NCBI GenBank assembly: GCA_016874095.1
Contig: VGVH01000006.1
Coordinates: 62,001-126,000 of the forward strand
Reading direction: 5' to 3'
DNA length: 64,000 nt
DNA from: Gammaproteobacteria bacterium
GTDB taxonomy: Bacteria > Pseudomonadota > Gammaproteobacteria > Steroidobacterales > GCA-2729495
Under the pieces are notes generated by a model. That model worked only from the letters and a program-made list of their open reading frames with translations. It did not search any database and was not told where the DNA came from. A program made the translations under genes and the position numbers. Shown one piece after another: positions 29,435 through 60,885 of this stretch (its first letter is position 1; the number at the start of each line of letters is the position of its first letter).

Positions 29435-31288
29435 ATGACGATTCACGGCCCGATTCGCCTCGCCGCGCTGCTCCTGCTCGGCGCGCTGGCCTACGCCAAC
29501 GTCCCGACGCTCGGGTTCGTCTGGGACGACATCGCGGTCGTCGATTTCCAGCTCGAGCGGCTGCAGACGCTGGCCGACGTCATCCGCCCCCCGCCCGACA
29601 TCGTGCGCTGGAGCTACCAGTACTACCGGCCGCTGATGACCCTGAGCTACCTCGTCGACGCGCGCGTTTTCGGCGCGGGTGAGCCCGCTGGCGCGCACCT
29701 CAGCAACCTGCTGGTGCATCTGGTCGCGACCGCACTGCTGTGGCGCCTGCTGCTGCGCGCACTGGCCGGGGCCGCCGGCGGGGCCGCGGGCGCCTGGATC
29801 GGCGCGGCGCTGTTCGCCGTGCACCCGATCCACACCGAGTCGGTCACGTGGATGGCCGGGCGCAGCGACGTATTCGCTGCGGCGGGGCTGTTCGGCGCGC
29901 TGCTCTGTGCGCTGGCGTGGCGGGATCGCGGGTCGCGGGGGGCGCTGGCCGCATCGGCGCTGCTGTTTCTGGCGGCGTTGATGAGCAAGGAGGTGGCGGT
30001 CACGGGGTTGGGGTTGTTGCCGTTGGTCTGGGGGGCGGTCGGGGGTTCGGTCAGAGGTGGGTCGGTCGGGGCTGGCGCCCCTCCTACAAAGAGCATGCGG
30101 GCGGGCTTGATGGCCTTTGCGCTATGGGTCGTCGTGCTCGGGGCGTTCGTCGTGCTGCGGCAGTGGGCAGGGTCGTCGTCGCAGATCGGGACGACCGCGG
30201 TGCCGGGCGATGCGCTGGAGGCCGGGGTTCGCGCCAGTGCTTTCTATTTGATGAAGCTGGTCTGGCCCTGGCCGCAGGTGAACCTGGTCGCCTGGGAGAT
30301 GGCGCCCGGCGCGGCGAGCGCTGCGCTCGCCACGCTCACTGCCCTGGTGCTGACCGGACTGGCCGCGGTACGCGCCTGGCGTGGCCGGGGTGGCACGGCC
30401 TTCCTCGCCTGGGGCTGGTTCTGGGTCACCATCAGCCCGCCACTGCTCATCGCCATGCAGGGGGCGACCAACACGCCGCTCGCGGAGCGCTACCTTTATC
30501 TGCCGTCCGTGGCGTTGTCGATCGGCGTCGGTTTGCTGTCGGCGCGTCTGCTGGCCGCCGGCTGGCGGCGGTCGGTTGCCGTCGTCACCGTCGCGGTGCT
30601 GAGCACGCTCGCTGTGGCGACCTTCCAGCGCAACGGCGTCTGGCGCGACGACATCGCTCTGTGGTCCGACGCCGCCAGGGGTCCGGCCGTCGGCTCGCTG
30701 GCCTGGCTGAATCTCGGGCTGCACCTGATGGAGACCGACGAGCGCCGCTCGATCGACGCCCTGGCGCAGGCCGCAGGGCGCAGCGACCTCACGCCGCTGT
30801 GGCGCTCGCGCGCGGAGAACGGCATTGGGCATCTGCTCATGGAGCGCGGGGATGCGGATGGCGCGGAGCCCCGCTACCGCGCCGCGATTGCCGCAGCACC
30901 CGACAACCATGAGCCCTATTACGGGCTGGCCTGGGTCGCGCAGCACCGTGCCGAGGCCGGTGACACCCTCGAACGGGACGCGCAGGCCGAGCGTGCGGTC
31001 GGCTATTACGTCGTGGCACTCCAGCGCAATGCCGCCTACCACGCCGCGCGGCTGCGCTTCGCCGGCTTTCTCGCCGAGCTGGGCGACTGGCGCAGCGCCG
31101 CCGGCGACCAGGCCGGCGCCGAGCGTCGCTGGCGCGCCGCCGTCGAGCAACTCGACGCGCTCGATGCGCTCATCCCCGCGGCGCGGCGCGCGCGGGTGGT
31201 CGGCAAGCTCGCAGCGGATTCCGGCATCGACCCTGCGGCACTGCGCGCGAGACTGGCGACACAGCTGACCGGGGAACCGGCGGGCTAG
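29435..31288 (+). CDS. TMTC-like (DUF1736) GT-C membrane glycosyltransferase with TPR tail, paralogue 1
   Basis: A 617-residue protein with about ten membrane helices (residues 1-400) and a C-terminal TPR part. Family marks: FVWDDIAV in the first loop (Asp31/Asp32, the place of the catalytic Asp in GT-C enzymes), YRPLMTLSYLVD, VHPIHTESVTWMAGRSDV, SKEVAVTG, KLVWPWPQ, PLAERYLYLPS and WRDDIALWSDA. The same series occurs in eukaryotic TMTC O-mannosyltransferases. Four more copies lie in this window. It would transfer a sugar from a polyprenyl-phosphate donor to a protein or glycan in the periplasm; substrate unknown. A REP sequence (30063-30089) is read in frame in the loop after the KEV helix. 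A phosphatase-fold gene follows after 9 bp. Confidence 0.82.
   Translation: MTIHGPIRLAALLLLGALAYANVPTLGFVWDDIAVVDFQLERLQTLADVIRPPPDIVRWSYQYYRPLMTLSYLVDARVFGAGEPAGAHLSNLLVHLVATALLWRLLLRALAGAAGGAAGAWIGAALFAVHPIHTESVTWMAGRSDVFAAAGLFGALLCALAWRDRGSRGALAASALLFLAALMSKEVAVTGLGLLPLVWGAVGGSVRGGSVGAGAPPTKSMRAGLMAFALWVVVLGAFVVLRQWAGSSSQIGTTAVPGDALEAGVRASAFYLMKLVWPWPQVNLVAWEMAPGAASAALATLTALVLTGLAAVRAWRGRGGTAFLAWGWFWVTISPPLLIAMQGATNTPLAERYLYLPSVALSIGVGLLSARLLAAGWRRSVAVVTVAVLSTLAVATFQRNGVWRDDIALWSDAARGPAVGSLAWLNLGLHLMETDERRSIDALAQAAGRSDLTPLWRSRAENGIGHLLMERGDADGAEPRYRAAIAAAPDNHEPYYGLAWVAQHRAEAGDTLERDAQAERAVGYYVVALQRNAAYHAARLRFAGFLAELGDWRSAAGDQAGAERRWRAAVEQLDALDALIPAARRARVVGKLAADSGIDPAALRARLATQLTGEPAG
30063..30089 (+). 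repeat. REP element inside a coding region, in frame
   Basis: GGTCGGGGCTGGCGCCCCTCCTACAA matches the REP arm (GGTCGCGGCTGGCGCCGCTCCTACAA) except for two compensating changes that keep the hairpin. It is translated as part of GSVGAGAPPTKS in a loop of the TMTC-like protein. The preceding 30 bp also repeat GGTCGGT/GGTTCGGT, which looks like target or arm duplication. Confidence 0.8.
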
Positions 31289-31297
31289 AATGGCGCG

Positions 31298-32800
31298 ATG
31301 ACCGAACGACGATCCCCTGTCCTGCCGGCGCTCGCGGGCGCTGGTCTCCTCGCCGTCGCGGCGCTGGCCTGGTGGTTCACCGGCCGGAACGCCGACACGA
31401 TGCCTGATTCCACCGCGGCAGCGACTGCGCAGCGCCGTCCCGTGCCGGTGATCTTCTATCTCATCGACACGCTGCGCGCCGACCGGCTGGGGCTCTACGG
31501 CTACGACAAGCCGACCTCGCCCATAATCGATGCCCTGGCGAAGGAAAGCGTGGTGTTCGACCGCGCCCACTCGGCCGCCCCGTGGACCCTGCCCTCGGTG
31601 TCTTCGCTGTTCACCTCGCGCTTCCCCTGCGAGCACGGCGTGATCCGGAACCAGCTGCGGCTGTCAGAGTCCCTGCCCACGCTGGCCGAGCGACTGCAGG
31701 CTGCCGGCTATGCAACGGGCTCCTACTACCAGAACAATTTCGTGGGCCCGATGGCCGGGCTGTCGCGCGGCTTCCAGGTCGTGGAGTTTCGCCAGGATCT
31801 CGAGACACTGGACCTCGACGCCCGTGAATTCCTGGGGCGCGTCGCTGACCAGCCCTATTTCCTGTACCTCCATTCGATGGAGCCGCATGCCACGTATTTC
31901 GCGCCCCGCGATCTCGTCAAGAAATTCGGCTACGTCAGCATCGACGACCACGAGGCCTTCCGCGCACACTGGATCGGCTATCGGATGATGTGGTTTGCCG
32001 ATGCCAAGGCCAGCCGGCCGGTGGGCAGCACCGACACGACCGAAGGTGTCGACCTGGCCATCAATAACATCAACGCCCTCGAGGCGAGCGCGCACATCCT
32101 CTACGACGCGGCGGTGAACTTCGCCGACATCGAGCTCGGCCAGACGATCGAGGTGCTGCGCCAGACCGGCGCCTGGGACGAGGCGATCTTCGTGCTGCTG
32201 GCCGACCACGGCGAGGAAATGCGTGACCACGGCTTGTGGTTCCACGACCAGTCCGTCTACGAGGAAATGACCCACGTCCCGCTCATGATCCACTTTCCCG
32301 GCGGCAGGCACGGCGGCAAGCGCGTCAGCGAGAACGTGTCGCTGCTCGACGTCATGCCCACTGTTCTCGACTTCGTCGGCGAGGGCGACGCCTGCGAGAA
32401 CTGCCGCGGTTCGAGCCTGTTGCCGCTGGTCGACGCGGCCTACGGCGGCACGTACCGCCCCAGCGAACTCCCCACCATGCGCTGGAACGTCTGGGGCTAC
32501 TACAAGCCGCTGAAGGCCAGTCGGGGCGACATCAACGTCGTGGTGCGCGACGGCGATCTCAAGGGCATCTGGAACAAGGAGCCGGGCACGGTCGAGCTCT
32601 ACGATCTCGCGAGTGATCCGGGTGAGCAACAGGATCTCGGCCCGTCGGACGGCACCCGCGCGACGGCGATGGCCGACAAGGCCGCGCAGTGGCTGGCGCA
32701 GTGCGAGGCGACGAAAGTTGCGCCGACCGAGGTGGCGCCCGAGGATATATCCAGCGAAGACCGGGACCGCCTGCGCGCGCACGGGTATTTCGGCGGGTGA
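31298..32800 (+). CDS. Membrane-anchored sulfatase-fold (alkaline phosphatase superfamily) hydrolase or transferase
   Basis: A 500-residue protein with an N-terminal anchor (LPALAGAGLLAVAALAWWF) and a periplasmic alkaline-phosphatase-superfamily domain. Metal and active-site parts: YLIDTLRADRLGLYGY (Asp57), APWTLPSVSSLFTSRFPCEHG, LADHGEEMRDHGLWFHDQSVYEEMTHVPLMI. At the position of the Cys that becomes formylglycine in sulfatases there is Thr97, so this is not a classical sulfatase; a Thr nucleophile fits phosphatase or phospho-transfer chemistry (as in LtaS or EptA). It is the second gene after TMTC paralogue 1 with a 9-bp gap, so it probably modifies the same glycan or glycoprotein. Confidence 0.82.
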   Translation: MTERRSPVLPALAGAGLLAVAALAWWFTGRNADTMPDSTAAATAQRRPVPVIFYLIDTLRADRLGLYGYDKPTSPIIDALAKESVVFDRAHSAAPWTLPSVSSLFTSRFPCEHGVIRNQLRLSESLPTLAERLQAAGYATGSYYQNNFVGPMAGLSRGFQVVEFRQDLETLDLDAREFLGRVADQPYFLYLHSMEPHATYFAPRDLVKKFGYVSIDDHEAFRAHWIGYRMMWFADAKASRPVGSTDTTEGVDLAINNINALEASAHILYDAAVNFADIELGQTIEVLRQTGAWDEAIFVLLADHGEEMRDHGLWFHDQSVYEEMTHVPLMIHFPGGRHGGKRVSENVSLLDVMPTVLDFVGEGDACENCRGSSLLPLVDAAYGGTYRPSELPTMRWNVWGYYKPLKASRGDINVVVRDGDLKGIWNKEPGTVELYDLASDPGEQQDLGPSDGTRATAMADKAAQWLAQCEATKVAPTEVAPEDISSEDRDRLRAHGYFGG

Positions 32801-33671: not shown

Positions 33672-35474
33672 ATGACGAAGGAATCCGCCGTGCGACGCGC
33701 GTGGCCAGGGGCAGTGCTCGTGCTGCTCGTGATGGCGGCCTATGCGCCCGCGCCCTGGGGCGAGCTCGTCTGGGACGACCGGATCCTCATCGACAACCAG
33801 CTGCCGGCCTTCACCGGCTGGCGCGACGCCTTCTGGCCGCCGGCGAACGTCGATCAGTGGTCCGACAACTACTACCGGCCGATCCTCACGCTGAGTTACC
33901 TCGCCGACCGCGCCCTGTTCGGCCGCGAGCCCGGCGGCATGCATGTCGTGAACGTGTTGTTTCACCTGGCCGCGACACTCGGCCTGTACGCGCTGCTGGG
34001 GCTGCTCCTGCGCCAGCGCGCCGCCGGGCACTGGGGCGCACTCGCCGGCGCCGCGCTCTTCGCCGTGCACCCGATCCACACGGAGACGGTGAGCTGGATC
34101 CTCGGCCGCAGCGACGCCGTGGCGGCGCTGTTCCTGTTTCCGGCGACCGCGCTGGCACTGCGCTGGCGCGACGGCGCCGGCGTCGCGTCGCTGATCGCGG
34201 CAGCCGTCGGCTTCGCCCTCGCGCTGCTGTCCAAGGAGGTCGCTGCAGCCGGACTGCTGCTGATTCCTGCGACCCTGTGGCTTGCGCCGCGAGCGGCGGG
34301 CGCGCCGTTGCCGGATGCCGGTCGCTGGCTGCGGCTTGCGATCGCACTGCTCGCAGCGCTGGCTGCTGTCCTGGCGCTGCGCCAGTCCGCGGGCGACGCG
34401 GCGGCCGGATCCGGTTTCGGCACAGCGGACCTGGATACCTGGCCGGCACTCCAGTCGCTGGCCTGGTTCAGCATCAAGGCGATCTGGCCGTGGCCGCAGT
34501 CGATCTTCGTGCCCGCTGAATCACTGCCGGGTGTCGCCGTCACGCTCACCAGCGTCGCGCTACTGCTGGCCGTCGCGGTCTGGGGGTTGCGCCGCTGGCG
34601 CGCCGGCGGCGACGCCCTGCCATTGCTGGCGCTGCTGTGGTTCGGGGCGACCGCCGCGCCGACTCTGGCGGCAGCCGCGTTCAACCTCGCGGCCACGCCG
34701 GTGGCGGAACGCCAGCTCTACCTGCCGAGCGCCGCCGTGTCGCTGCTCGCGGCACTGGCGGTCGCTGCGACGGCCGGCACCGGCCGATGGCGGCTGGCGT
34801 GCAGCGCCGCGGTCATCGTGATCCTCGGCTACGGCGCCACCACGGTGGCGCGCGGCTTCGCCTGGCAGGACAACGAGCGGCTGTGGAGCGACGCGGTGGC
34901 GCAAGCGCCGGCGCACGGGCTGCCCGCGAACGAACTGGCGGTCGTCTATGCCCAGCGCGGCGACATCGAGCGCGCCTTCGCCCTGTGGCAGCGGGCGCGC
35001 ACGCTCATCAACGAGCCGAAGGAGGCCGGCATCGTCGAGGCGAATCTCGGCAACTTCTACCTGCGCCGCGGTGAGGAGCGCCAGGCGTTCGGGCATTTCG
35101 ACCGCGCCGTGCAGCTGTTCTGGGCGCAGCCGAACGCGCACCAGGGGCTGGGGCGACTGCTGATGCGGGAGTCGGCGCGAATCGCCAGCGCCGATGGCGC
35201 CAGGGCGGCGGCAGCGGCGGACCGGGCGACGCTGCACTACCGCGCGGCGCTGGAATTCCGTCCGGCCGCCGCGACCATCCGTTTCGAACTCGCCGACGCG
35301 CTGGCGCGCCTCGGCCAGATGGAAGAACAGCAGGGTGCCGGCAGCACCGCTGCCCTGCACTACGCCGAAGCCCGGGCGGAACTCGAGCGGGCGCTCGCAT
35401 CGGACCCGGCGGCCGGCGAATCGTCCGGCATCCGGTCGCTGCGCGATTTCCTCGCAGCGCGTACCCGCGGCTAG
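33672..35474 (+). CDS. TMTC-like (DUF1736) GT-C membrane glycosyltransferase with TPR tail, paralogue 2
   Basis: A 600-residue protein. ATG 33672 is preferred to the GTG at 33645. Marks: LVWDDRILIDNQLP in the first loop, YYRPILTLSYLADR, VHPIHTETVSWILGRSDAV, SKEVAAAGLLLIPA, KAIWPWPQSIFVP, PVAERQLYLPSAAVS and WQDNERLWSDAVAQAP, then four or five TPR-like helix pairs (LGNFYLRRGEERQAFGHFDRA). Loop sequences are shorter than in paralogue 1 and contain no REP. Its stop overlaps the stop of the convergent paralogue 3 by 4 bp. Expected to sit in the inner membrane with the active loop in the periplasm. Confidence 0.82.
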   Translation: MTKESAVRRAWPGAVLVLLVMAAYAPAPWGELVWDDRILIDNQLPAFTGWRDAFWPPANVDQWSDNYYRPILTLSYLADRALFGREPGGMHVVNVLFHLAATLGLYALLGLLLRQRAAGHWGALAGAALFAVHPIHTETVSWILGRSDAVAALFLFPATALALRWRDGAGVASLIAAAVGFALALLSKEVAAAGLLLIPATLWLAPRAAGAPLPDAGRWLRLAIALLAALAAVLALRQSAGDAAAGSGFGTADLDTWPALQSLAWFSIKAIWPWPQSIFVPAESLPGVAVTLTSVALLLAVAVWGLRRWRAGGDALPLLALLWFGATAAPTLAAAAFNLAATPVAERQLYLPSAAVSLLAALAVAATAGTGRWRLACSAAVIVILGYGATTVARGFAWQDNERLWSDAVAQAPAHGLPANELAVVYAQRGDIERAFALWQRARTLINEPKEAGIVEANLGNFYLRRGEERQAFGHFDRAVQLFWAQPNAHQGLGRLLMRESARIASADGARAAAAADRATLHYRAALEFRPAAATIRFELADALARLGQMEEQQGAGSTAALHYAEARAELERALASDPAAGESSGIRSLRDFLAARTRG

Positions 35475-37330
35475 GGCTGCTGCGTTTCGCCCCGGCGCGG
35501 CCCGGGGGCGCCCGCCGCTGCCCAGATCCGCGCGCGGTAGGCCGGCACGTCGCGCTCGAGTCCCGGCTCGGCGCCGGCCAGGAACGCTGTGAGCGCCTCG
35601 CCCTTCATGCGGGCTTCGAGGTCGTCTAGGCTACCGATCGCCTGGCGCCAGGTGGCGAGCGCCTCGGCGTGGCGCCCTGTGGCGTCCAGCGCCAGCGCCT
35701 CGGCGTGCAGCGCCTGCGCCAGCGCCACCCGCGCTTCGTGGAAGTCGGGCGACTCGATGAGCGCGTTGCGCAACCCGCGGATCGCGCCCGCACGTGCGGC
35801 AAAGGACGCGGCGTCCCGATCGCTGCCGACGGTGAGGACCGTGAGCAGGTCGAGGCCGTAGCCCGCGCGCAGGAATTGCGGGTTCTCGCTGCGCGAGCGC
35901 CGCATCCAGCTGCGGGCGCCGTCGCGGTCGCCGGCGGCGAGGTCCAGCTCCGCGAGGCCGTACATGACCTTGGCGCGCTCGGAGGAATCGGCGTCGGCAT
36001 CGAGCCCGCGCAGGTAGGCAGCGCGGGCCTCTACGCTGCGGCCCGCCGCACGATGGGCGCGGGCGAGGCTGTGCCAGGCGAACACGTTGCCGGGCGCGCG
36101 CTCGGCGGTGGCCGCCCAGAGGCGCGACTCCTCCGACCAGGTCAGGCCCCAGGCGAAGGCGCCGGCGGTGAAAGCGGCAATGCCGGCGAGCAGTGCTGCG
36201 CGCAGCCACGCGTCGGCCAGTCGGGCCCACGCCCAGCCCGCCAGCAACGCCGCACCGACCGACGGCAGATAGGCGTAACGCTCCGCCACCGGCGCACGGG
36301 TCCCGAACGAAATCGCGACCCAGAGTGCGGGGGCCAGAGCCAGCAGGAACCACAGCAGCCCGAGCAGCGGCACGCCATCGCGCTGCCGGCGCCACCTTTG
36401 AATGGCTGCGTAGCCAGCGGCGGCCGTGGCGAGCAGGATCAGGCCGCTGCCGATCAGCGAGGGCAGATCGCCCCAGCCCGCCAGATGCTGCATCGGCCAC
36501 GGCAGGGCGATCTTGAGCAGGTACCAGGCGGTCGAACGGCCCAGCGCGACCAGCGTCAGCAGCGGGCCGAGATCCAGCGGATCGCCGATGCCCGTGGCCG
36601 TGGCCTGCCTGGCCCAGGCATACAGCGTCAGCGGCAGGAGCAGCGCAACCGCGCCGAGCGCCATCGCGCGGCCGTCGAAGGCCGGTGCGGCGGCGGGTCG
36701 CGGCGCGAGCCACAGCAGTGCGGGCAGCAACAGCGCGGCGACCACGCCCACTTCCTTCGCGCCCAGGGCGAGCAACACGAACAACGCCGCCGCGACGAGG
36801 CTCGCTGTGGAACGCCGATCGCGCCAGCCGAGCGCGGCGAGACCGGCTGCGACCACGAAAAGCGTCGAGAGCACGTCGGTGCGCGCACAGATCCAGTTGA
36901 CCGACTCGACGTGCAGCGGATGGACGGCGAACAAGGCCGCTGCCACCAGCGCCGCTTCCCGTGCATCGTCGCCGAGCACCCGCCGCGCGAGCAGCCATAC
37001 CAGCCAGGTCGCAAGGACATGCAGCAGCAGGTTGGTCGCATGCGCCAGCGCGGTCGCCGCCTCGCCGCCGCCGCTCAGATCGAGGAGAAAGCTCAGCGTC
37101 ACCAGCGGGCGGTAATAGGTGTCCGACCAGTTCGGGACGGCGGCCGGCGGCTGGAGCACGTCAACCAGTGACTCGATGCGCGGCAACTGGTCGTCGACGA
37201 GGATGTGGTCGTCCCAGACGAGGCCGCTCCAGAATGCCGGCAGGTGGGCGAGCACGGCGAGCACCAGCGGCACCAGCACGAGCCAGGGACGCGCGATGTC
37301 GATGCGGGCGGTCGGTTCGGCGGACTGCAA
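35471..37330 (-). CDS. TMTC-like (DUF1736) GT-C membrane glycosyltransferase with TPR tail, paralogue 3
   Basis: A 619-residue protein, convergent with paralogue 2. Marks: LVWDDHILVDDQLP, YYRPLVTLSFLLD, VHPLHVESVNWICARTDVL, AKEVGVVAALLLPAL, KIALPWPMQHLAGWGDLP, PVAERYAYLPSVGAALLAG and WSEESRLWAATAERAPGN. The fourth mark differs from the others (LPWP in place of WPWPQ), which suggests it has diverged in donor or acceptor. The C-terminal half is a solenoid of TPR-like units (AYLRGLDADADSSERAKVMYGLAELDLAAGDRDGARSW). It is a single-gene minus-strand unit between two plus-strand genes, which hints at insertion or inversion. Confidence 0.82.
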   Translation of the reverse strand: MQSAEPTARIDIARPWLVLVPLVLAVLAHLPAFWSGLVWDDHILVDDQLPRIESLVDVLQPPAAVPNWSDTYYRPLVTLSFLLDLSGGGEAATALAHATNLLLHVLATWLVWLLARRVLGDDAREAALVAAALFAVHPLHVESVNWICARTDVLSTLFVVAAGLAALGWRDRRSTASLVAAALFVLLALGAKEVGVVAALLLPALLWLAPRPAAAPAFDGRAMALGAVALLLPLTLYAWARQATATGIGDPLDLGPLLTLVALGRSTAWYLLKIALPWPMQHLAGWGDLPSLIGSGLILLATAAAGYAAIQRWRRQRDGVPLLGLLWFLLALAPALWVAISFGTRAPVAERYAYLPSVGAALLAGWAWARLADAWLRAALLAGIAAFTAGAFAWGLTWSEESRLWAATAERAPGNVFAWHSLARAHRAAGRSVEARAAYLRGLDADADSSERAKVMYGLAELDLAAGDRDGARSWMRRSRSENPQFLRAGYGLDLLTVLTVGSDRDAASFAARAGAIRGLRNALIESPDFHEARVALAQALHAEALALDATGRHAEALATWRQAIGSLDDLEARMKGEALTAFLAGAEPGLERDVPAYRARIWAAAGAPGPRRGETQQP

Positions 37331-37883: not shown

Positions 37884-39158
37884 CTAGGCCAGGCGCTCGG
37901 CCGGCGTGCCCTGCGGCGCAACGGCCAGCGAAGCCATCATGTGCCGGCGCAGGTAGGTCGCATCCTCGTTCCAGATGCGCTCCTCGACGCGCTCGTGCAG
38001 GTAGGGATAGAGCGGATCGCCGTACCACGCGAGGTTCTTCAGCCAATGCGGGGCGGTGAGCGTGAGCACGGCGGCGAAGGCGACGCCTGCTGCCGCCAGC
38101 CAGCGACCGCGATCACCCGGTCGCAGTGCGCGCCAGAGGACCCGCAGCGCCAGTGCCAGCGCGGGAAACGCCACGATCAGCACGGCGGAGTACTTGGTGA
38201 GCAGCGCACCCGCCACCGCGACGGCAAGGAGCAGCCAGACGCCGGTGCGATGCGTGCGCCAGGCGCGCAACGCCAGGAGCGCCAGCACCGGCGCCCAGAA
38301 CGCCGCCACGTGGTCCGCCCCGGCGATCAGCGCCGAGTCGAACACGAACAGGGCCGGGAACAGGAACAGGGCAACCCAGGCGTGGCGCAGGCGCGGCCGG
38401 GCGATCAGCGCCCGGGCCAGCACCGCGATACCAGCGAGTGTGGCGAGGAACAGCGTGTACTCCAGATGCAGCGCGAGCGCGACCTGGTCGAACAGCGCCC
38501 CGCCCGGCACCATGAACGCCCAGGCGTAGAGCACGCTCGAGAGGTGTGGATAGGCGCCGATGTACCAGCCTTCGCGGAACGCGCTGATCCCGCCGTCCGC
38601 GACGTAGTGCTCCGCGATGGCGAGGTGGTACCAGCGCGCATCGAAACCGATCTGGTGCGGCACCAGGATGCCGATGTAGACCACCGCCGCCGCCGTGATG
38701 CCGAGAGCAACGAGGACCGCGCGCCAGACACGTACCGCCAGCGGCCGCGGACGGGAATGCGCAACCGCGCGGACATGGCGCCTGATGCGCGGCCCCAGCA
38801 CCCGCCAGGCCGGTCGCGCGAAGCCGCCCAGGAGGAGCGCCGGCCAGGCAAGGAAAAAAGCCGTGCCGAACCATCCCGCAATGCCGGCGAGGAAGGTGCC
38901 GAGGAAGAAAACATAAACCCCGGCGGCTGACGCGGCGAGCAGACGCTCGCCTGTCCGTGCACGGCCCGGCAGCAGCCGGGCCGTCAGCGCCGTGCCCGCC
39001 GCGAGGCAGGCGGCAGCCCATGCGAGGCAGGCGAGCCAGTAGCCGGCATAGCGCCAGACCAGCCAGAATTCCAGCGGGTAGGCCGCATGCACGGCCCGCA
39101 CGAACACGGCGAGCGCTGCCGCCAGCACGACGCTGAGGGCAGCGCGACGCCAGAGCAT
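37884..39158 (-). CDS. GT-C type membrane glycosyltransferase, C-terminally truncated
   Basis: A 424-residue protein with about ten membrane helices. The first long periplasmic loop has IGFDARWYHLAIAEHYVADGGISAF, which fits the Asp-containing loop of GT39-like enzymes, followed by YPHLSSVLYAW, LIAGADHVAAFWAPVLALLALRAW, LLTKYSAVLIVAFPAL and HWLKNLAWYGDPLYPYLHE. The protein stops soon after this last motif (TPAERLA), where relatives continue for 100-300 residues. The TAG is next to the remnant at 37398-37817. It starts with ATG at 39158, sharing one base with the stop of the upstream gene, and is the last gene of the operon from 46666. Activity may be lost. Confidence 0.72.
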   Translation of the reverse strand: MLWRRAALSVVLAAALAVFVRAVHAAYPLEFWLVWRYAGYWLACLAWAAACLAAGTALTARLLPGRARTGERLLAASAAGVYVFFLGTFLAGIAGWFGTAFFLAWPALLLGGFARPAWRVLGPRIRRHVRAVAHSRPRPLAVRVWRAVLVALGITAAAVVYIGILVPHQIGFDARWYHLAIAEHYVADGGISAFREGWYIGAYPHLSSVLYAWAFMVPGGALFDQVALALHLEYTLFLATLAGIAVLARALIARPRLRHAWVALFLFPALFVFDSALIAGADHVAAFWAPVLALLALRAWRTHRTGVWLLLAVAVAGALLTKYSAVLIVAFPALALALRVLWRALRPGDRGRWLAAAGVAFAAVLTLTAPHWLKNLAWYGDPLYPYLHERVEERIWNEDATYLRRHMMASLAVAPQGTPAERLA

Positions 39159-39970
39159 CAGAAAGTCACCCTGAACACGCCGCGCAGGGCGAAACCCAGC
39201 AACAGCGTGAATCCGAAGAGCAGCCAGGACGCCGACGACAGGCCGATGAACTCCCCCCGCGCGCGCGGGTAGTCCACCGTCACGGATGCAACCGGAGAGC
39301 CTGCGGGCAAGGCCTGCTCAACCGCGGAACCGAGCGTGCGCCAGTCATCGGCGCGATAGACCACTGGCGCCAGCGGCGGCATCCCGTCGCCGACGAGGAC
39401 ACGTCGCGCAACGGTGTTTCCCGCCACGTCGAACTCGACCTGCTGCGGACCGGATCCTGCGCCGCTGACCCGCCAGAGCACTTCGCCGCGGTCATCCAGG
39501 CGCAGCGCCGGCGTCTCGACCACGACGCCCGAGCCACGCAGCGACACGGCGCCTTGCGACTCGATCGCGATCGTGACGATCGCTCCTTCGCCGGGCGCGA
39601 GCGGTCGCCACGCGTGGCGCGCCTCGACCTGCACGAGCAGCAGCGCCACCGGCACCAGCATCAGCGCGAGCGGGACGACCGAGTAACCGAGATAAGCCAG
39701 CGAATGCAGGACCACCCTGCCCTGCGCCCGCAACAGGACGCCAGGATCGTCCTTGTAGAGCCACAGCTCCAGCAGGTGCGCCTTGATCTGGTCCTTGGCA
39801 TGGGTAATGCCCGCCTGGTCGGACGCGAACCGGAAGACCAGCAGCGCAAAAACCGTGAGCGGCACTGCAGTGGCAGCGATCTGCCATGCGGCCGGGAGAC
39901 CGGCGATCAGCCCGAACCACGCCGAGCCCAGTGCGTTCGTCCCGGCGTTGAGCGCCTCGTAGGCCGTCAT
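39158..39970 (-). CDS. Membrane protein of unknown function with periplasmic beta domain
   Basis: A 270-residue protein I do not recognise. Hydrophobic segments lie at about 25-45 (AWQIAATAVPLTVFALLVFRF), 95-120 (AYLGYSVVPLALMLVPVALLLVQV) and at the C-terminus (SSASWLLFGFTLLLGFALRGVF). Between the first two, a basic cytoplasmic stretch GITHAKDQIKAHLLELWLYKDDPGVLL recalls the cytosolic helical part of YidC/EMC3-type proteins, but the similarity is weak. The 130-residue periplasmic part is beta-rich (VTIAIESQGAVSLRGSGVVVETPALRLDDRGEVLWRV). ATG 39970 is used; the longer frame lies over the small gene upstream. It is in the operon with a phosphodiesterase-fold enzyme and TMTC paralogue 4. Confidence 0.65.
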   Translation of the reverse strand: MTAYEALNAGTNALGSAWFGLIAGLPAAWQIAATAVPLTVFALLVFRFASDQAGITHAKDQIKAHLLELWLYKDDPGVLLRAQGRVVLHSLAYLGYSVVPLALMLVPVALLLVQVEARHAWRPLAPGEGAIVTIAIESQGAVSLRGSGVVVETPALRLDDRGEVLWRVSGAGSGPQQVEFDVAGNTVARRVLVGDGMPPLAPVVYRADDWRTLGSAVEQALPAGSPVASVTVDYPRARGEFIGLSSASWLLFGFTLLLGFALRGVFRVTF

Positions 39971-39974
39971 CGTC

Positions 39975-46666: not shown

Positions 46667-46724
46667 GGGCGATGTTCGATCCGCGAGGCAGTGCTTCGGC
46701 TGCGATCATAATAGAATCGCGGCC

Positions 46725-50803: not shown

Positions 50804-51299
50804 CGGGCTTGCGCAGGACTGCCCACTGGCCGGTGACCATGAACCGGCGATTGCTCACGATCTCGAAAAACGGAATGTCTTCCACGTAAACCAGATGATC
50901 GTGCGGACTCGTGCGTCGCTGATTGATGCCCAGCAACTCGAGCACGCGGCAGGCCCAGTCCCAGTGCGGGACCGGCGTCGTGAGTCGCAGCGTGCCCCCG
51001 GGCCGCAACAGGTCGAATACCTCTCGATAGCACGGCACGTGTTCCAGCACCTCGAACGCCAGGACGGTGTCGTATGCGCCGGCCTCGAGCCCGAGCGATC
51101 GCCAGTGAAGGATGCTGCCCACGATATCTGCCGGTGGCTGCAGATCGAGCCCGGTGTAGTTCGCGCGACCCGTGGATCGCAGGAAGTCGCCCACCCACCG
51201 ATCGCCGCAACCGATCTCGAGGATGCGCGCCTCGGCCGGTATGTCGGCCATGAGCCACGAGGCGCGATGACGTCGTGCGTATTCGCTCAGGAGTCCCAT
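50796..51299 (-). CDS. Short SAM-dependent methyltransferase
   Basis: A 167-residue methyltransferase core without zinc ribbon. Motif I is ILEIGCGDRWVGDFL, then YTGLDLQPPADIVGSI and YDTVLAFEVLEHVPCYREVFDLLRPGGTLRLTTPVPHWDWA. It is short for the family, with only the Rossmann core and a small C-terminal cap (ISNRRFMVTGQWAVLRKPAT-like end). It is convergent with the GT2 gene and divergent from glf, with only 20 bp between the two ATG codons. Confidence 0.8.
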   Translation of the reverse strand: MGLLSEYARRHRASWLMADIPAEARILEIGCGDRWVGDFLRSTGRANYTGLDLQPPADIVGSILHWRSLGLEAGAYDTVLAFEVLEHVPCYREVFDLLRPGGTLRLTTPVPHWDWACRVLELLGINQRRTSPHDHLVYVEDIPFFEIVSNRRFMVTGQWAVLRKPAT

Positions 51300-51319
51300 G
51301 CGCTACGATGGGGCTACCC

Positions 51320-52447
51320 ATGACCAATCGTCAATATGACTACCTCATCGTCGGCAGCGGTCTGTTCGGCTCCGTCTTCGCCCAGCAGGCGGTCGAGAAC
51401 GGCCGCTCGGTGCTCGTGCTCGAGAAGCGCACCCACATCGGCGGAAACTGCTATTCCGCCGAGCATGAGGATACCGGCATCATCGTGCATCGTTACGGCA
51501 CGCACATCTTCCACACGCCGAACAAGGCCATCTGGGATTACGTCAACCGGTTTTCCGCGTTCACGCGCTATCGCCATCGCGTGCTCACGAAGCATCGGGG
51601 GCGCGTCTATTCGATGCCGATCAACCTCGGCACTATCAACGCGTTCTACGGGCTGGACCTGAAGCCGGGGGAAGTCGACGCCTTTCTCGCAGCGCGACGG
51701 CCGAGAATTGAGCGGCCCGCCAATCTCGAGGAGAAGGCGATCAGCCTCGTCGGCGAGGAGCTCTACCGCGCCTTCATCGCCGGCTACACAGAGAAGCAGT
51801 GGGCACGGTCGCCGCGCGAACTGCCCGCCAGCATCATCAACCGCCTGCCCGTGCGAACGAGCTACGACGACAGTTACTTCGACGACACCTGGCAGGGCCT
51901 GCCCGCCGAGGGCTACACGCCGATATTCGAGCGCCTGCTCGCTGGCGCCGACATCGAGCTGGGCTGCGACTTCCTGGCCGACCGCGATTACTGGCGCAGC
52001 CGGGCAAGGCGTGTCATCTATACCGGCCCGGTCGACGCCTGGTTCGACTACTGCCATGGCCGGCTCGGCTGGCGATCGGTGCGCCTCGATACCGAAGTGC
52101 TGCCGGTCGGGGACTTCCAGGGCACCTCGGTGATGAACTACGCCGATACCGACGTGAGCTGGACCCGCATCCACGAACCAAAGCACCTGCACCCGGAGCG
52201 CAGCGTTCGCGAGAACACCACCGTGATCGTGCGTGAGTATTCCCAGGTCGACGACGACGCGCCCTACTATCCGATCGGCACCGCCGCCGACCAGGAGTTG
52301 TTCGGCAGGTACCAGGAGATGGCGGCGCGCGAGGCCGGAGTCCGCATGGGCGGGCGGCTGGCGCAGTATCGTTATTTCGACATGCACCACGTCGTGGCGC
52401 AGGCGCTGAAAGCGGCGCGCGAGGAACTCAGCGCTGGCGCGGCATGA
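51320..52447 (+). CDS. glf: UDP-galactopyranose mutase
   Basis: A 375-residue flavoenzyme interconverting UDP-galactopyranose and UDP-galactofuranose. FAD motif YLIVGSGLFGSVFAQQA, then VLEKRTHIGGNCYS, RYGTHIFHTPNKAIWDYVNRF, INLGTINAFYGL, FIAGYTEKQWARSPRELPASIINRLPVR, YTPIFERLLAGADIEL, VIYTGPVDAWFDYCHGRLGWRSV and the C-terminal YYPIG. ATG 51320 is used. The gene shows that the cell makes galactofuranose, so the surface polymer likely contains Galf. The 3' end overlaps the convergent GT2 gene by 20 bp. Confidence 0.96.
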   Translation: MTNRQYDYLIVGSGLFGSVFAQQAVENGRSVLVLEKRTHIGGNCYSAEHEDTGIIVHRYGTHIFHTPNKAIWDYVNRFSAFTRYRHRVLTKHRGRVYSMPINLGTINAFYGLDLKPGEVDAFLAARRPRIERPANLEEKAISLVGEELYRAFIAGYTEKQWARSPRELPASIINRLPVRTSYDDSYFDDTWQGLPAEGYTPIFERLLAGADIELGCDFLADRDYWRSRARRVIYTGPVDAWFDYCHGRLGWRSVRLDTEVLPVGDFQGTSVMNYADTDVSWTRIHEPKHLHPERSVRENTTVIVREYSQVDDDAPYYPIGTAADQELFGRYQEMAAREAGVRMGGRLAQYRYFDMHHVVAQALKAAREELSAGAA

Positions 52448-54124: not shown

Positions 54125-54125
54125 C

Positions 54126-55613
54126 ATGAGGCTGTCGGCCGACGTCGCGGTCGTCGCGGGCCTGACCCTGGCGGGTGCGCTGCTGCGCCTCCTCACCCTC
54201 GGCGGCGAATCCCTCTGGTACGACGAAGCCGCGATGTACCACCTGGTGCAGGGCAGCTGGCGGGAAGTACTTGCCGCCAATGCTGTCGGCAACAGCTCGC
54301 CGCCGGTCTTCCCGCTGTTGCTCGGCGCACTGACCGCACCCGACTCGTCGGAAGCTGCGCTGCGGGCGCCGGCCGCCCTGGCTGGCATCCTCTCGATCCC
54401 GGCCGCCTGGCTGCTGGCAAGGGAATTCGTCGACTCGCCCTGGGCATTGCTTGCGCCACTGCTGACGGCATTGTCACCGGTGCAGGTCGAGTACTCGCAG
54501 GAAGTCCGCGAGTATTCACTGAGCTTCCTCGCTGCCTGCTGCCTGCTGATCGCCTGGGCGCGCTTCCTGCGCGAGGCGACGCCGCGCCATGCGGCACTGG
54601 TGGCGCTGTCATCTGTCGCGGCCGTCTGCATCCAGTACGGCACGGCGCTGCTGGCGGCAGGCGCCAACCTCGTGTTCGTCGCATTCGCCGCTTGGGAACG
54701 GGCGCCGGTGGCGCGCTGGCGGCTGTGGCTCGCCTCGCAGCTGCCGCTGGCAGTTGCCGGCATCGCCCTCTACGTCACGACCATGAGTTCCCAGCTCGGC
54801 CACGCGGCCGTCGGCGGCGGCGGCTACTGGTACCTGCTCGACCGCTACTGGGATGGCAGCATCGCGGGCCTGCGCACGCTGCTCACGGCCGATCGCGCGG
54901 ACTTCATCCACTTCGCCTTTCCGGGCAAGGCGCTGTTCGCGCTGGTGGTCATCGGCGCCATCGCCGGTGTCGTGGACCGCAGGTTCCGCCACGCGACAGC
55001 GCTGCTGGTCGCGCCGACGGCCGTGACCATCGCTGCGGCGCTCGCGCAAGCCTACCCCTTCGGCGGCATCCGCCAGAACATGTATCTCGCGCCGATGGTG
55101 TATGTCGCCGCAGCTGTCGGCCTGGCCGCGATAGCCGGCTGGCTGCGGCCGCGGGCCGGCACGGCGACTGCCTGGGCAGTCGTGGCAGTGACGGTGGGCG
55201 CATTGGCCTGGATCGGCGCGTCACGCAGCTGGCGGCTGACGCAGGGCGCTGGCGCCGAGCCCATGCGCGAGGTCGCGGCCGAACTCGTCCGCCAGGTCGA
55301 TCCCGGCGACGTCATCTACGTGTACGCAGGCGCCCAGCCAGCCTTCCGCTACTACTGGCGCAACCGTCCCGAGCCCTGGATCGCCGGCAGCCCGCACGCC
55401 TCCGGACTCGACCCGGAAGTCGCCCGACGGCAGATGATGCAGGTCCAATCGGAGCTCCTCGCACTGGTGGATGAACGCCGGCCCTACTGGCTCGTCGGCT
55501 CGCACCTCGACGAGGACGACGGGCTCGAACTCGTCGCGCGGCTGCGCGAGAGGGCTGCCGTAAACGTCACGCTGGGACGGGGCGGTTCGTTCCTGCTGCG
55601 GGTGACGCCGTGA
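54126..55613 (+). CDS. GT39-like GT-C membrane glycosyltransferase
   Basis: A 495-residue membrane protein with about 11 helices. First-loop motif GGESLWYDEAAMYHLVQGSW, with the Asp-Glu pair of ArnT/PMT-type enzymes, then GNSSPPVFPLLLGAL, SPVQVEYSQEVREYSLSFLAACCLL and the late GGIRQNMYLAPMVYVA. A soluble C-terminal part of about 110 residues follows. It would transfer a sugar from a polyprenyl-phosphate donor in the periplasm. It overlaps the acyltransferase gene by 4 bp (GTGA). Confidence 0.85.
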   Translation: MRLSADVAVVAGLTLAGALLRLLTLGGESLWYDEAAMYHLVQGSWREVLAANAVGNSSPPVFPLLLGALTAPDSSEAALRAPAALAGILSIPAAWLLAREFVDSPWALLAPLLTALSPVQVEYSQEVREYSLSFLAACCLLIAWARFLREATPRHAALVALSSVAAVCIQYGTALLAAGANLVFVAFAAWERAPVARWRLWLASQLPLAVAGIALYVTTMSSQLGHAAVGGGGYWYLLDRYWDGSIAGLRTLLTADRADFIHFAFPGKALFALVVIGAIAGVVDRRFRHATALLVAPTAVTIAAALAQAYPFGGIRQNMYLAPMVYVAAAVGLAAIAGWLRPRAGTATAWAVVAVTVGALAWIGASRSWRLTQGAGAEPMREVAAELVRQVDPGDVIYVYAGAQPAFRYYWRNRPEPWIAGSPHASGLDPEVARRQMMQVQSELLALVDERRPYWLVGSHLDEDDGLELVARLRERAAVNVTLGRGGSFLLRVTP

Positions 55614-57598: not shown

Positions 57599-59080
57599 GT
57601 GATGCGCCCGCAGCGATTGTCAGCCTGGCTGGCCGGTCTCGCCGTCCTCGCCGCGGGGCTCGTCCTCATGGCGATGCGACTCGCCTACGACCTGTTCGAT
57701 GCCGACGAGCTGCAGCACGCCCACCTGGCCTGGCTCGTGGCCGGCGGCAAGCAGTTGTACGTCGACATCTGGGACAACCATGGCCCGCTCTACACGCTGG
57801 CGAATGCCGTTGTGTTGCGGCTCGCCGACCCGGCGCCCTCGCTCGACCTGCTGTTCGCCTGCCGCGCGCTGTCCGCCTGCGCGGCGATCGGCATCGGCGC
57901 CTGCACCTGGCTGATCGCGCGGCGCGCCGGGCTGTCACGCCTGGCGGCGCTGACCGCCGTCAGCATCCTTGCTTCGCTCGTGTTTGCGCAGGACAAGGCC
58001 ATGGAGTGCCGGCCGGATGGCTGGCAGAACCTGTTCTGGCTGGCGGGCCTGGCGCTGCTCGCGACCGGGACGACGTTGCGCCGAGCGGCCGGCGCCGGCG
58101 CGCTCTGGGCGAGCGCGATACTCATCAACGCCAAGGCGGCGCTCGGGCCCCTGGCCGTGCTGCTCTTCTGGCTCCTCGGCAGGCGCTGGCACGGGCGAAC
58201 GGTCATTGAGACTCGGCGCGCCATCGTTGCCGCGGCTGCCGGCGGGTTGGCCGTCTACTTGCCCGTTTTGGCCTGGTTCCAGGCGACCGGCGCTGCCTGG
58301 GCGCTGCACGAATACGCATTGCTCTGGAATCTGCAGGCGCTCGGCAACTCCGGCCCGTCGACGCTCAGCGACGACAACGTCCGCTTCCTGGTAGTCCGAC
58401 AGTGGCCGTTCGTGCTCGCGCTGCTGCTCGGATCGGTGTGGTGGATTGTCGATCTCGCCCGGAGGCACGAGTCGTTGCAGCGCGAAGCCGCAGCGATGAT
58501 CGCCACCGCCGCGCTCATCACCGGCCTCAGCCTCGGCATGGACTTCTACTACCAGTTCTTCCTCATCTGCCTGCCACTGTGGTCGATCGTGGCGGCGCAC
58601 GGCGTACAGCGCAGCGCGGTGGCGCTCGCTGAGCGCTTCGGCCCGGTGGCGTCGTGGACGGCCGGCGTCGCGGCTGCAGCCGGCGCCGCCGTGCTGCTCG
58701 CGACGGCCGCCCGCATCACGCCGGAATCACCCCGACATGAACTCGTTTTCCAGGAGTCGTTCACGCGGTTCATGCTGGCGACGACGCCGCGCGAGGAACC
58801 GCTGGGCGTGATCTGGGACATCTGCGGCGGATTCATGTTCAACGAACCGCTGCAGTTCTATTGGGGCGCCGAAGCTGCAATCGGCAAGGCAGCCGAACGG
58901 CATGCCGGCAGCGATCCGTTCGGCCAGCCCTTCATCGACGCGCTCGAGCGCGGGCAGGTACGGTTCGTGATCGGCCGCGACACAGGCCTCCTGAACCAGC
59001 TGCCGGCGATCACGCAGAGCTACCTGCGCGAGCGCTATCGCTATTCGAACTGCCTGTGGACGCGCCGGACGACACCATGA
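57599..59080 (+). CDS. GT39-like GT-C membrane glycosyltransferase
   Basis: A 493-residue membrane protein with about 11 helices. The first loop has YDLFDADELQHAHLAWLVAGGKQLYVDIWDNHGPLYTL, with the Asp-Ala-Asp-Glu motif and a later DNHGP typical of GT39-like enzymes, followed by AMECRPDGWQNLFWLAGLAL and LALLLGSVWWIV. The soluble C-terminal region is about 110 residues. GTG 57599 or ATG 57602 can serve as start. Its TGA overlaps the ATG of TMTC paralogue 5. Confidence 0.85.
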   Translation: MMRPQRLSAWLAGLAVLAAGLVLMAMRLAYDLFDADELQHAHLAWLVAGGKQLYVDIWDNHGPLYTLANAVVLRLADPAPSLDLLFACRALSACAAIGIGACTWLIARRAGLSRLAALTAVSILASLVFAQDKAMECRPDGWQNLFWLAGLALLATGTTLRRAAGAGALWASAILINAKAALGPLAVLLFWLLGRRWHGRTVIETRRAIVAAAAGGLAVYLPVLAWFQATGAAWALHEYALLWNLQALGNSGPSTLSDDNVRFLVVRQWPFVLALLLGSVWWIVDLARRHESLQREAAAMIATAALITGLSLGMDFYYQFFLICLPLWSIVAAHGVQRSAVALAERFGPVASWTAGVAAAAGAAVLLATAARITPESPRHELVFQESFTRFMLATTPREEPLGVIWDICGGFMFNEPLQFYWGAEAAIGKAAERHAGSDPFGQPFIDALERGQVRFVIGRDTGLLNQLPAITQSYLRERYRYSNCLWTRRTTP

Positions 59081-60885
59081 AAGCCACGGCACGGCTGCAG
59101 GCGGCGACCGCCATCGTCGTGCTGGCGGTACTCGCCGTGCTGCCCTCGATATCCGGGGAAGCCATCTGGGACGACGTCTTCTGGAGCCGCCAGATCGAGT
59201 ACTTCAAGAGCGCCGGCGACGTGCTGCGTCCGCCGGCCGGCATACCGGACTGGCCGAGCGGCTACTTCCGCCCCGTAACGACGGCGAGCTATCTCCTCGA
59301 CCGGGTGACCTGGGGCGAAGACTGGGTGCGCGGGCGGCACGTGTCGAACATCGCGTTCCATGCGCTGGCCTCGCTGGCGCTCTGGGGGCTCGCCCGCCGG
59401 CTGCTGGCCGACCTGCCGCAGCGGGAATTCGGCGCACTCGCAGCCGGCGCACTGTTCGCCGTGCATCCGATCCACACCGAATCGGTCTGCTGGATAGGCG
59501 CGCGGGTCGACGTGCTGGCGACGCTGTTCCTGACCGTCAGCCTCACGCTCAGCCTCGCCTGGCGCGACAGCCGGTCCGTGCTGGCACTGCTCGCGGGCGG
59601 CGCGAGCTTCCTGCTCGCGCTCGGCTCCAAGGAAGTAGCAGTGGCGGGGCTCGCCATCCTGCCGGTGCTGCTCGTGCTCGCGCCGCGTGGCGCAAGCCGT
59701 GGCAGCGGCGACTGGCTGGCACCGGCGGCCGGATACGCGGCAGCGGCGACGCTGTACTTCGTGCTGCGGGCGGACGCGACGACCAGCGTTGCCGGGCAGT
59801 TCGGTGGCCTGGACATCGCCAGGCTCGCGCAGGCAAGCGCTTACTACATCGGCAAGCTCGTCTGGCCCTGGCCGCAGAGCAACTTCGTCGTGCCGGGCGA
59901 TCTGCCCGGACTGGCCGCTGCCGCCGGTATCTTTGCCGCGGGCAGCGTCCTGCTCGCGCTCGCCATCCGCGCCTGGCGCAACGGCGGATCGGCAGCACCG
60001 CTCGCCGGGCTGCTGTGGACCGGCGCAGCCCTGACACCGTCGCTGGTGGTTGCGCTGTCGGGATTCGCCACCAACCCGGTGGCAGAACGCTACCTCTACC
60101 TGCCGTCGGCGGGATTCGCGCTTGCCTGCGGCGCAGGCCTGGCATGGACTGCGTCACGGCTCCCCATAGTGCCGGTACGCGCCGTCGCGGGGCTGATCGT
60201 CGCCGCCCTGCTCGCCGCCAGCGTCAGCCGCAGCGTGGATTGGTCCAGCAACATCCGGCTCTGGTCCAGCACGACGGCACTCGGCACCACCCATGCCCAG
60301 CCCTGGGTCGAGCTGGCGACGGCGCAGATGGCCGCGGGCGAGTACCCGCAGGCGCTCGCCGCATTCGACGAGGCGCGGCGGCGCGTGATCGACGACGGCA
60401 CCCTCTCGGTCGCCGAGTACAACACGGGGCTCGTCCATCTGAAGCTCGGCGATCCGGCGCAGGCCGAGCTTGCATTCACGCGCGCGCGCAATGCAGACCC
60501 TGCCTATGCACTGGCGCGCTACGGGCTCGGGCGTGCGTACTACGAGCAGGCGCTCCTGCTGCCGGCCGGTCGCAGCCGGCTGGCACTGTTCGAACGCGCC
60601 GAGAACGCCTTTCTCGCGGCGATCGGACTCAACGCCGGTTTCGGCGAACCGCGGCTCGAGCTCGTCAAGGTCGCGCTGCGCCGTGGCCAGTCGCTGGCGG
60701 CGGACGGTGACGCGGCCGGCGCCGCTCGCGGCTATGCCAGCGCCCGCACCCGGCTCGACGCGCTGCTCGCCGCCCTGCCATCGCTGGCGACCGCGCCCGG
60801 CATACCGGAGCTGTCGGCCGAGATCGACGCCGCTGCGCGTGGATCAGTGCCGCGGACGCCGCTCGGGGCCGGCGATGCGCCGTAG
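59077..60885 (+). CDS. TMTC-like (DUF1736) GT-C membrane glycosyltransferase with TPR tail, paralogue 5
   Basis: A 602-residue protein. ATG 59077 overlaps the stop of the GT39-like gene; the frame upstream is a shadow. Marks: AIWDDVFWSRQ, YFRPVTTASYLLDR, VHPIHTESVCWIGARVDVL, SKEVAVAGLAILPVL, KLVWPWPQSNFVVPG, PVAERYLYLPSAGFAL and WSSNIRLWSSTTALG. The TPR part follows from about 400. The WDD loop is kept, but SWITGRSD has become CWIGARVD, the same direction of change as in paralogue 3 (ICARTD). It ends the plus-strand run and overlaps the convergent GT2 gene by 42 bp. Confidence 0.82.
   Translation: MKATARLQAATAIVVLAVLAVLPSISGEAIWDDVFWSRQIEYFKSAGDVLRPPAGIPDWPSGYFRPVTTASYLLDRVTWGEDWVRGRHVSNIAFHALASLALWGLARRLLADLPQREFGALAAGALFAVHPIHTESVCWIGARVDVLATLFLTVSLTLSLAWRDSRSVLALLAGGASFLLALGSKEVAVAGLAILPVLLVLAPRGASRGSGDWLAPAAGYAAAATLYFVLRADATTSVAGQFGGLDIARLAQASAYYIGKLVWPWPQSNFVVPGDLPGLAAAAGIFAAGSVLLALAIRAWRNGGSAAPLAGLLWTGAALTPSLVVALSGFATNPVAERYLYLPSAGFALACGAGLAWTASRLPIVPVRAVAGLIVAALLAASVSRSVDWSSNIRLWSSTTALGTTHAQPWVELATAQMAAGEYPQALAAFDEARRRVIDDGTLSVAEYNTGLVHLKLGDPAQAELAFTRARNADPAYALARYGLGRAYYEQALLLPAGRSRLALFERAENAFLAAIGLNAGFGEPRLELVKVALRRGQSLAADGDAAGAARGYASARTRLDALLAALPSLATAPGIPELSAEIDAAARGSVPRTPLGAGDAP

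Follow-up and report, generated by a model that had tools for sequence, protein, structure and literature searches.

Five TMTC-like genes in one exosortase region

The window analysed here is a 64-kb stretch of a gammaproteobacterial contig (GenBank assembly GCA_016874095.1, contig VGVH01000006.1, positions 62,001 to 126,000). Within ~31.5 kb of it we observed five paralogous genes, on both strands, for TMTC-like proteins with a GT-C-type N-terminal part and a TPR tail (Table 1). Alignment and a whole-genome search confirmed the original prediction of five such paralogues with shared motifs. Each gene exists, but for copies 3 and 4, on the minus strand, the position first given is the 3′ end. 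Common to all five are WDD, YRP (FRP in copy 5), VHP(I/L)H.E(S/T)V.W, R.D, KEV and AER.xYLPS. The mid-loop motif reads GRSDV, GRSDA, ARTDV, GRSDV and ARVDV in copies 1 to 5, so the proposed divergence of GRSDV from ARTDV/ARVDV stands, except that copy 2 reads GRSDA. Copies 2-5 are 32-38% identical to copy 1, which as a query against the whole genome gave exactly five matches at E up to 1e-5; a five-row profile added one match, covering TPR positions only. The recurrence of five motif-sharing copies in one region is far beyond chance.

Pfam found TPR repeats in all five copies, with curated cut-offs passed by some matches in copies 2 and 3 only. Copy 4 overlaps the downstream phosphodiesterase gene (TAATG) and copy 5 overlaps the upstream gene (ATGA), and 9 nt separate the end of copy 1 from the start of a sulfatase-like gene. 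The true start of copy 4 is probably the GTG at 43947, since ~80 N-terminal residues of the called open reading frame do not align with the other copies.

Family assignment and predicted fold

The five proteins had been assigned to the DUF1736 family. Pfam lists a TMTC_DUF1736 (PF08409) match for none of the five full proteins, and likewise no PMT_2 match (maximum E 10, with HMMER filters dropping most matches above E ~0.1). DUF1736 membership was dropped for this reason, and we call the proteins TMTC-like on the same ground. Other Pfam entries were weak, for example GtrII in copy 3 (E 0.08) and DDE_Tnp_1 in copy 2 (E 0.07). With NCBIfam, copies 2 and 3 gave weak Agl23 matches as well as TPR-type ones, copy 5 gave TPR-type matches only, and copies 1 and 4 gave nothing. 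Alignment A3 comprises 67 N-terminal domains, those of the five copies and of 62 relatives; PMT_2 matches 25 of them and TMTC_DUF1736 matches 7 (at 0.01). The TMTC motifs M1-M7 were taken from excerpts of PMC7801869; M1 (DD), M3 (RxD), M4 (KE) and M7 (ERxxY) of that list are invariant in the five copies, and M2 (SHKSYRP) is incomplete, with YRP/FRP only. Judged by their motifs, the five copies are a TMTC-like branch of GT-C that falls short of the Pfam test for TMTC.

We obtained an AlphaFold2 model of copy 1 (m49a6bf33d8d4) from a 64-row alignment with copy 1 as its first row; the predicted local distance difference test score (pLDDT) was 93.5 and the predicted template modelling score 0.92. 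Residues 1-430 align with STT3 (Z 21.8), Pmt4 (Z 19.9) and ArnT (5f15; Z 19.7, root-mean-square deviation 4.4 over 322 aligned residues, 14% identity), and residues 418-617 with TPR domains such as OGT (Z about 17). TPR chains headed the Foldseek ranking, and GT-C matches topped the list in a second aligner. A PDB sequence search with the N-terminal profile gave no match at E up to 1. The alignment to ArnT starts from model residue 3 and chain residue 26, and read without gaps it would equate D32 of copy 1 with D55 of ArnT, which excerpts of PMC7801869 describe as an active-site residue. The model of copy 1 bears out the GT-C fold, the Asp pair near the N-terminus and the TPR tail that had been foreseen. 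In the other four copies the fold, with an Asp pair in what would be the first extracytoplasmic loop, is predicted by homology. Altogether, the five copies are very likely GT-C glycosyltransferases.

Many relatives of the five genes adjoin type IV pilin genes

We surveyed 78 multi-phylum loci and a class sample of 274 genomes, of which 91 carry the family and 31 an XrtD over cut-off. Excluding the window genome and G168 and G187 (both without coordinates) left 88 class genomes, mostly represented by their best family gene with up to 5 kb on each side; 60 loci were taken first and 28 later. By a pilin test consisting of a regular expression plus adjacency, 48/88 class genomes have a type IV pilin gene no more than 1 kb from the family gene, and 50 have one within 4 kb. 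At least 600 bp of upstream sequence is present at 81 of the 88 loci, 46 of which have a pilin within 1 kb. In the first 60, the pilin lay within 4 kb in 38 and within 1 kb in 37, with one further locus at 1-5 kb, and 35 of those 37 pilin genes immediately precede the family gene on its own strand, at a median gap of 86 bp. The motif was absent from 217 kb of other DNA, namely 12 convenience stretches of which four are from the window genome; L099 and L100, which are among the 12, hold weak family members, and 177 kb remain without them. Among the multi-phylum loci, a pilin was found within 4 kb in 11/78 and within 1 kb in 8/78.

The model of a pilin-linked member (pLDDT 92.0) has the same GT-C and TPR build (Pmt4 Z 18.8, ArnT Z 17.7). 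Its tail also matches PilW (Z 13.1) and PilF (Z 12.4), middling values for helical repeats. The N-terminal part of pilin-linked members, ten scanned with Pfam and nine with NCBIfam, gave no match except one to DUF6056 (E 0.006). The GT-C/TPR family that adjoins a pilin in the 48 class genomes (surveyed loci L131-L190 and L207-L231) is thus one whose N-terminal part is nameless in both databases. The surroundings of the pilin and TMTC-like genes in L015, L021, L025, L030 and L044 repeatedly include genes for an ABC ATPase and a permease, together with one for a further protein that is membrane-anchored or periplasmic. Among the papers listed in searches of an open-access library, none linked TMTC-like proteins to pilins in its title or abstract opening.

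To place the five copies within the family we used two trees, both quick ones that lack bootstrap values, leave many forks open and include some long branches. In both, the five copies and copies from G016, G021 and G026 form a single starred clade (99). In one of them this clade lies inside a starred 22-row clade (97*) with 6/9 rows from UbiA loci, the other three being those of L029. Copies 4 and 5 are each sister to a G016 copy, and the duplications that produced them would therefore be older than the split of the window and G016 genomes. Pilin neighbours also occur in the sister group, whose members retain motifs of the window type (L006, L010, L015, L021, L022, L025 and L030). Compared with the rest, the clade is richer in pilin neighbours (7/13 vs 4/62) and in UbiA neighbours (5/13 vs 1/62), in tests that were made after the pattern was seen and that leave out L001-L003.

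A UbiA-type enzyme points to a candidate donor

The window encodes a UbiA-type prenyltransferase. In the PDB its relatives at E up to 0.1 are limited to 8j8j and 8j8k (best E 4e-24), both decaprenyl-phosphate phosphoribosyltransferase (DPPR synthase). G016, G021 and G026 have UbiA homologues of 54-56% identity beside the family. Homologues are also found within 4 kb of the family in L006, L010, L015, L025, L029 and L030, which makes 8/78 multi-phylum loci when L001 and L002 are counted. In L025 and L030 the TMTC-like reading frame runs at its end into that of UbiA, and pilin and UbiA genes are both near a TMTC-like gene on the same strand in L006, L010, L015, L025 and L030. The Polysacc_synt protein is the flippase-like gene of the region; it could equally be Wzx. 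A pentofuranose donor is plausible. Mannose, the sugar implied by the comparison with animal TMTC enzymes, seems unsupported: the genome has this DPPR-synthase-like UbiA, and no GtrA/DPMS_TM protein was found in it.

Related arrangements were seen elsewhere. L029 carries, in one direction between 6278 and 16473, a TMTC-like gene, UbiA, DprE1-like (439 bits, cut-off 500) and DprE2-like (180 bits, cut-off 250) genes, a PHP-type gene and more TMTC-like genes, and is a candidate lipid-arabinose glycosylation operon. In class genome G162 (L127, 4355-7878) a UbiA-DprE2-DprE1 cluster lies beside a weak, divergent second family match of 59.5 bits. Tandem arrays of TMTC-like genes reach nine in L033, 8 in L019 and 7 in L040. 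The array genomes G342, G343 and G345 hold DprE1 homologues (~384 bits) elsewhere, and the stretches fetched around these contained no TMTC-like gene.

A possible association with XrtD among close relatives, not supported in the class

An XrtD exosortase is encoded in the window and a second one on the same contig outside it. Only two of the genomes looked at have XrtD close to a copy: the window genome, at 8 kb, and G016, at about 11 kb. The two VPxPA-tailed exported proteins beside copy 1 are very Thr-rich, with Ser+Thr contents of 26.5% (26198..27400) and 23.3% (27891..29153), compared with 13.5-19.5% in eight further VPxPA-tailed proteins, chosen by eye among the 16 loci that matched in this genome. 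The expected Ser/Thr-rich VPLPA-CTERM neighbours are present as two proteins, one of which scores below the TIGR03370 cut-off.

These features underlie the original prediction of a true TMTC O-mannosylation system dedicated to XrtD-sorted VPLPA-CTERM proteins, an explanation that we now consider improbable. It draws on the shared motifs and fold, on the XrtD and VPxPA genes in the window and on the XrtD of G016. It is also consistent with counts from 60 close relatives, where XrtD over cut-off occurs in 32 and all eight carriers of the family (match of at least 100 bits) are among those 32. These are 8/32 vs 0/28 (p=0.005), or 7/31 vs 0/28 without the window genome (p=0.011), in genomes that are related and not independent. 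Four carriers (the window genome, G016, G021 and G026) have strong matches, and the other four (G002, G007, G023 and G024) score lower, at 100-143 bits; strong matches alone give 4/32 vs 0/28 (p=0.12, kinship uncorrected). The close-relative counts lean towards some XrtD link in this lineage. Against a dedicated system, 24 of the 32 relatives with XrtD have no family match of 100 bits, none of the five copies matches DUF1736, and the search for GtrA/DPMS_TM came back empty.

Applied to the class sample, the refuting test set out with the original prediction showed no XrtD-specific co-occurrence. Its comparisons omit the window genome and use genome lists copied by hand from the search output; "other exosortase" denotes XrtD-model matches below cut-off, which may include XrtD fragments. 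The family was present in 16/30 XrtD genomes vs 74/243 others (p=0.02), and in 25/51 genomes with only other exosortase matches vs 49/192 with none (p=0.002). XrtD itself thus adds nothing over other exosortases (16/30 vs 25/51, p=0.82). No exosortase lay within 4 kb of a family gene in the 88 class genomes or the 78 multi-phylum loci, and a VPxPA/PEP-type tail was found at that distance in 0/60 class loci and 1/78 multi-phylum loci. Class-wide dedication to XrtD was dropped on the p=0.82 and the 0/88, with the close-relative set leaning the opposite way; the proposed association may survive among the 60 close relatives. Multi-copy sets are also not special to XrtD loci, as 23/78 loci have two or more copies, up to the nine of L033.

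Neighbouring genes in the window

The region further contains a UDP-GlcNAc 2-epimerase, GT2/GT4/GT9 enzymes and an acyltransferase, in addition to the features of Table 1.

Table 1. Genes of the window discussed in the text, by position in the 64-kb stretch
Feature	Position	Strand	Evidence or remark
VPLPA-CTERM protein	5104..5775	-	TIGR03370 25.9 bits, over cut-off
Methyltransferase adjoining GT9	11605..12663	-	similar-looking family near TMTC-like genes in 13/78 loci (sameness judged by eye)
GT9 (heptosyltransferase-like) adjoining UbiA	12492..13646	-	homologues recur near TMTC-like genes
UbiA-type prenyltransferase, decaprenyl-phosphate phosphoribosyltransferase kind	13668..14567	-	NF006088 350 bits, cut-off 351 (356 bits in another search)
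XrtD exosortase	19568..21184	-	TIGR04152 548 bits, cut-off 400
Paralogue of 27891..29153 with VPAPA tail	26198..27400	-	TIGR03370 15.8 bits, below cut-off of 25.35
Ser/Thr-rich exported protein, VPVPA C-terminal sorting signal	27891..29153	-	TIGR03370 26.0 bits, over cut-off; divergent from copy 1
TMTC-like GT-C + TPR protein, copy 1	29435..31288	+	sequence, whole-genome search, structure model
Alkaline-phosphatase-superfamily (sulfatase-like) hydrolase	31298..32800	+	PF00884 E 2.5e-42
TMTC-like GT-C + TPR protein, copy 2	33672..35474	+	sequence, whole-genome search
TMTC-like GT-C + TPR protein, copy 3	35471..37330	-	convergent with copy 2
GT-C-like membrane protein	37884..39158	-	weak LIC_10190 match; no Pfam match
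Uncharacterised protein	39158..40111	-	kept beside phosphodiesterase in G016 and G021
Alkaline-phosphatase-superfamily phosphodiesterase	40196..42151	-	PF01663 E 7.5e-36; overlaps copy 4
TMTC-like GT-C + TPR protein, copy 4	42151..44190	-	sequence, whole-genome search
PMT_2-type GT-C protein	44417..46666	-	Pfam; homologues near family in G016, G021, G026
Polysacc_synt flippase (Wzx-like)	46659..48158	+	E 1.7e-9
UDP-galactopyranose mutase	51275..52447	+	TIGR00031 352 bits, cut-off 304
PMT_2-type GT-C protein	54126..55613	+	Pfam
Membrane protein overlapping copy 5	57599..59080	+	GT-C-like by inspection only
TMTC-like GT-C + TPR protein, copy 5	59077..60885	+	sequence, whole-genome search

A hydrolase gene follows immediately after copy 1 and after copy 4, and homologues of the phosphodiesterase (60-63% identical) lie near the family in G016 and G021. 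The sulfatase-like protein carries a Thr (TLPS) at what we take to be the position of the sulfatase Cys/Ser, and it may be a phosphodiesterase or phospho-transferase. Beyond the window, L107 (6246-13420) holds a second phosphodiesterase and a second sulfatase-like gene (pair at 6246-10522), together with a sulfotransferase-like gene and another Thr-rich protein, the third, which has a GlyGly-CTERM-like tail. These pairings would fit a phospho-sugar modification pathway in which the coupled hydrolases remove or transfer a phospho group. We give this explanation little credence: phmmer with the two window hydrolases found nothing within 4 kb in the 60 class loci, and the 78 multi-phylum loci held one sulfatase-like gene (L049). 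A general link to hydrolases of the alkaline-phosphatase superfamily was rejected, as apart from L049 it concerns the window family only.

The other neighbours bear on the nature of the acceptor. The Wzx-like flippase, the UDP-galactopyranose mutase, the epimerase, the GT2/GT4/GT9 enzymes, the acyltransferase and the PMT_2-type GT-C proteins are what would be expected if the five enzymes decorated an exopolysaccharide of the XrtD locus or an O-antigen, each adding a different side sugar in the periplasm like GT136 or Gtr enzymes. The closest characterised UbiA/GT-C system that we found, described in excerpts of PMC11127046, indeed modifies a polysaccharide. Polymer decoration is less easily reconciled with the pilin genes within 1 kb of the family in 48/88 class genomes and with the two very Thr-rich exported proteins beside copy 1, and we regard it as a possible but doubtful account of the five genes.

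Proposed function

Our preferred reading, which we hold tentatively, is that the five are extracytoplasmic, polyprenyl-phosphate-dependent GT-C enzymes from a lineage that often glycosylates pilins, expanded at an XrtD/exopolysaccharide locus and probably using a lipid-linked pentofuranose. The UbiA enzyme would charge polyprenyl phosphate with ribose-5-phosphate, and a putative phosphatase and a flippase would bring polyprenyl-P-pentofuranose to the periplasm. Each GT-C copy may then hold the sugar lipid at its WDD / R.D / KE / ERxxY site and transfer the sugar to its own acceptor, probably Ser/Thr of proteins such as the Thr-rich, VPxPA-tailed ones beside copy 1, and XrtD would subsequently sort such an acceptor. 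By analogy with the pilins, a protein acceptor is somewhat favoured. More generally, members of the widespread bacterial TMTC-like family probably share one task, to O-glycosylate a surface protein that is exported, in many cases the adjacent type IV pilin. The predicted protein O-glycosylation system thus gains a protein-glycosylation context from the pilin neighbours and the Ser/Thr-rich exported neighbours, and loses its class-wide dedication to XrtD and VPLPA-CTERM proteins.

Several observations weigh against this reading. No pilin motif was found in the 64-kb window, nor in the fetched loci of the relatives G002, G007, G016, G021, G023, G024 and G026. Most pilin-linked class members form a separate group in which R.[TAN] and EHRxY replace R.D (M3) and ERxxY (M7), and to fit the pilin label the tree requires 18 changes; function may for these reasons not carry over from the pilin-linked members. 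The metal ligand of M5 (DW) has no conserved acid at the aligned place in the five copies, where the alignment is loose. The locus is full of polysaccharide genes, which makes a polymer acceptor equally natural. On the donor side, 15 kb separate UbiA from the nearest copy in the window, and 0/88 class genes examined have a UbiA gene within 4 kb, the weak second match of G162 being outside that set. At genome level the link of UbiA to the family is weak (26/62 vs 64/211, p=0.09). The HAD phosphatase half of NF006088 was not found in the genome (other phosphatase types were not searched), nor was DprE1, beyond a generic 56-bit partial match. Without a convincing DprE1, arabinose by the DprE1 route is unlikely, and ribose is our guess.

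The observation as a whole is real and coherent, and partly as first proposed. The pilin linkage offers a checkable substrate for the bacterial TMTC-like branch, and the UbiA and DprE1/DprE2 neighbours offer a concrete donor candidate. If the preferred reading is true, the window shows such enzymes multiplied and turned to exosortase-sorted proteins. Excerpts of PMC7801869 note full-length TMTC homologues in many little-characterised prokaryotes, and we found no function for them in the open-access literature searched. A bolder extension, which we think unlikely, is that the unnamed bacterial GT-C/TPR family is a general class of surface-protein O-glycosyltransferases, the counterpart of the animal TMTCs with pilins as frequent targets, and that five-fold duplication re-targeted it, in the window lineage, to exosortase-sorted, Thr-rich proteins, with lipid-linked ribofuranose replacing mannose.

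Comparison with known systems

Animal TMTC enzymes O-mannosylate cadherins, and their family presumably bears the CAZy number GT105. Like the window five, TMTC1-4 have a GT-C fold, DD in the first loop, R.D, KE, ER..Y and a TPR tail; unlike them, the window five lack a DUF1736 match, the SHKS of M2 and the DW of M5, and lie in a bacterial surface-gene context. The aminoarabinose transferase ArnT resembles copy 1 in fold (5f15, Z 19.7), but its acceptor is lipid A and, unlike the window five, it has no TPR tail.

The likeness to TfpW of P. aeruginosa Pa5196/PA7 is one of gene context. According to excerpts of PMC11841053 and PMC12369383, TfpW is a pilin arabinosyltransferase of the GT-C type encoded beside the pilin gene, with a D-Araf pathway that includes ubiA. 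Many relatives of the window five similarly sit just downstream of a pilin gene, whereas the window five have no pilin nearby and their genome has no convincing DprE1. In the three-component pentofuranose systems with GT136 (Citrobacter youngae), UbiA-made polyprenyl-phosphoribose feeds a GT-C enzyme, as described in the excerpted text of PMC11127046, a study that assayed UbiA in vitro with PRPP and farnesyl phosphate. The window, too, combines in one region a polyprenyl-phosphoribose synthase of the UbiA type (by homology) with GT-C enzymes and with a flippase-like gene that could equally be Wzx; it differs in that no HAD phosphatase part was found, in the TPR tail in place of a carbohydrate-binding module, and in having five copies.

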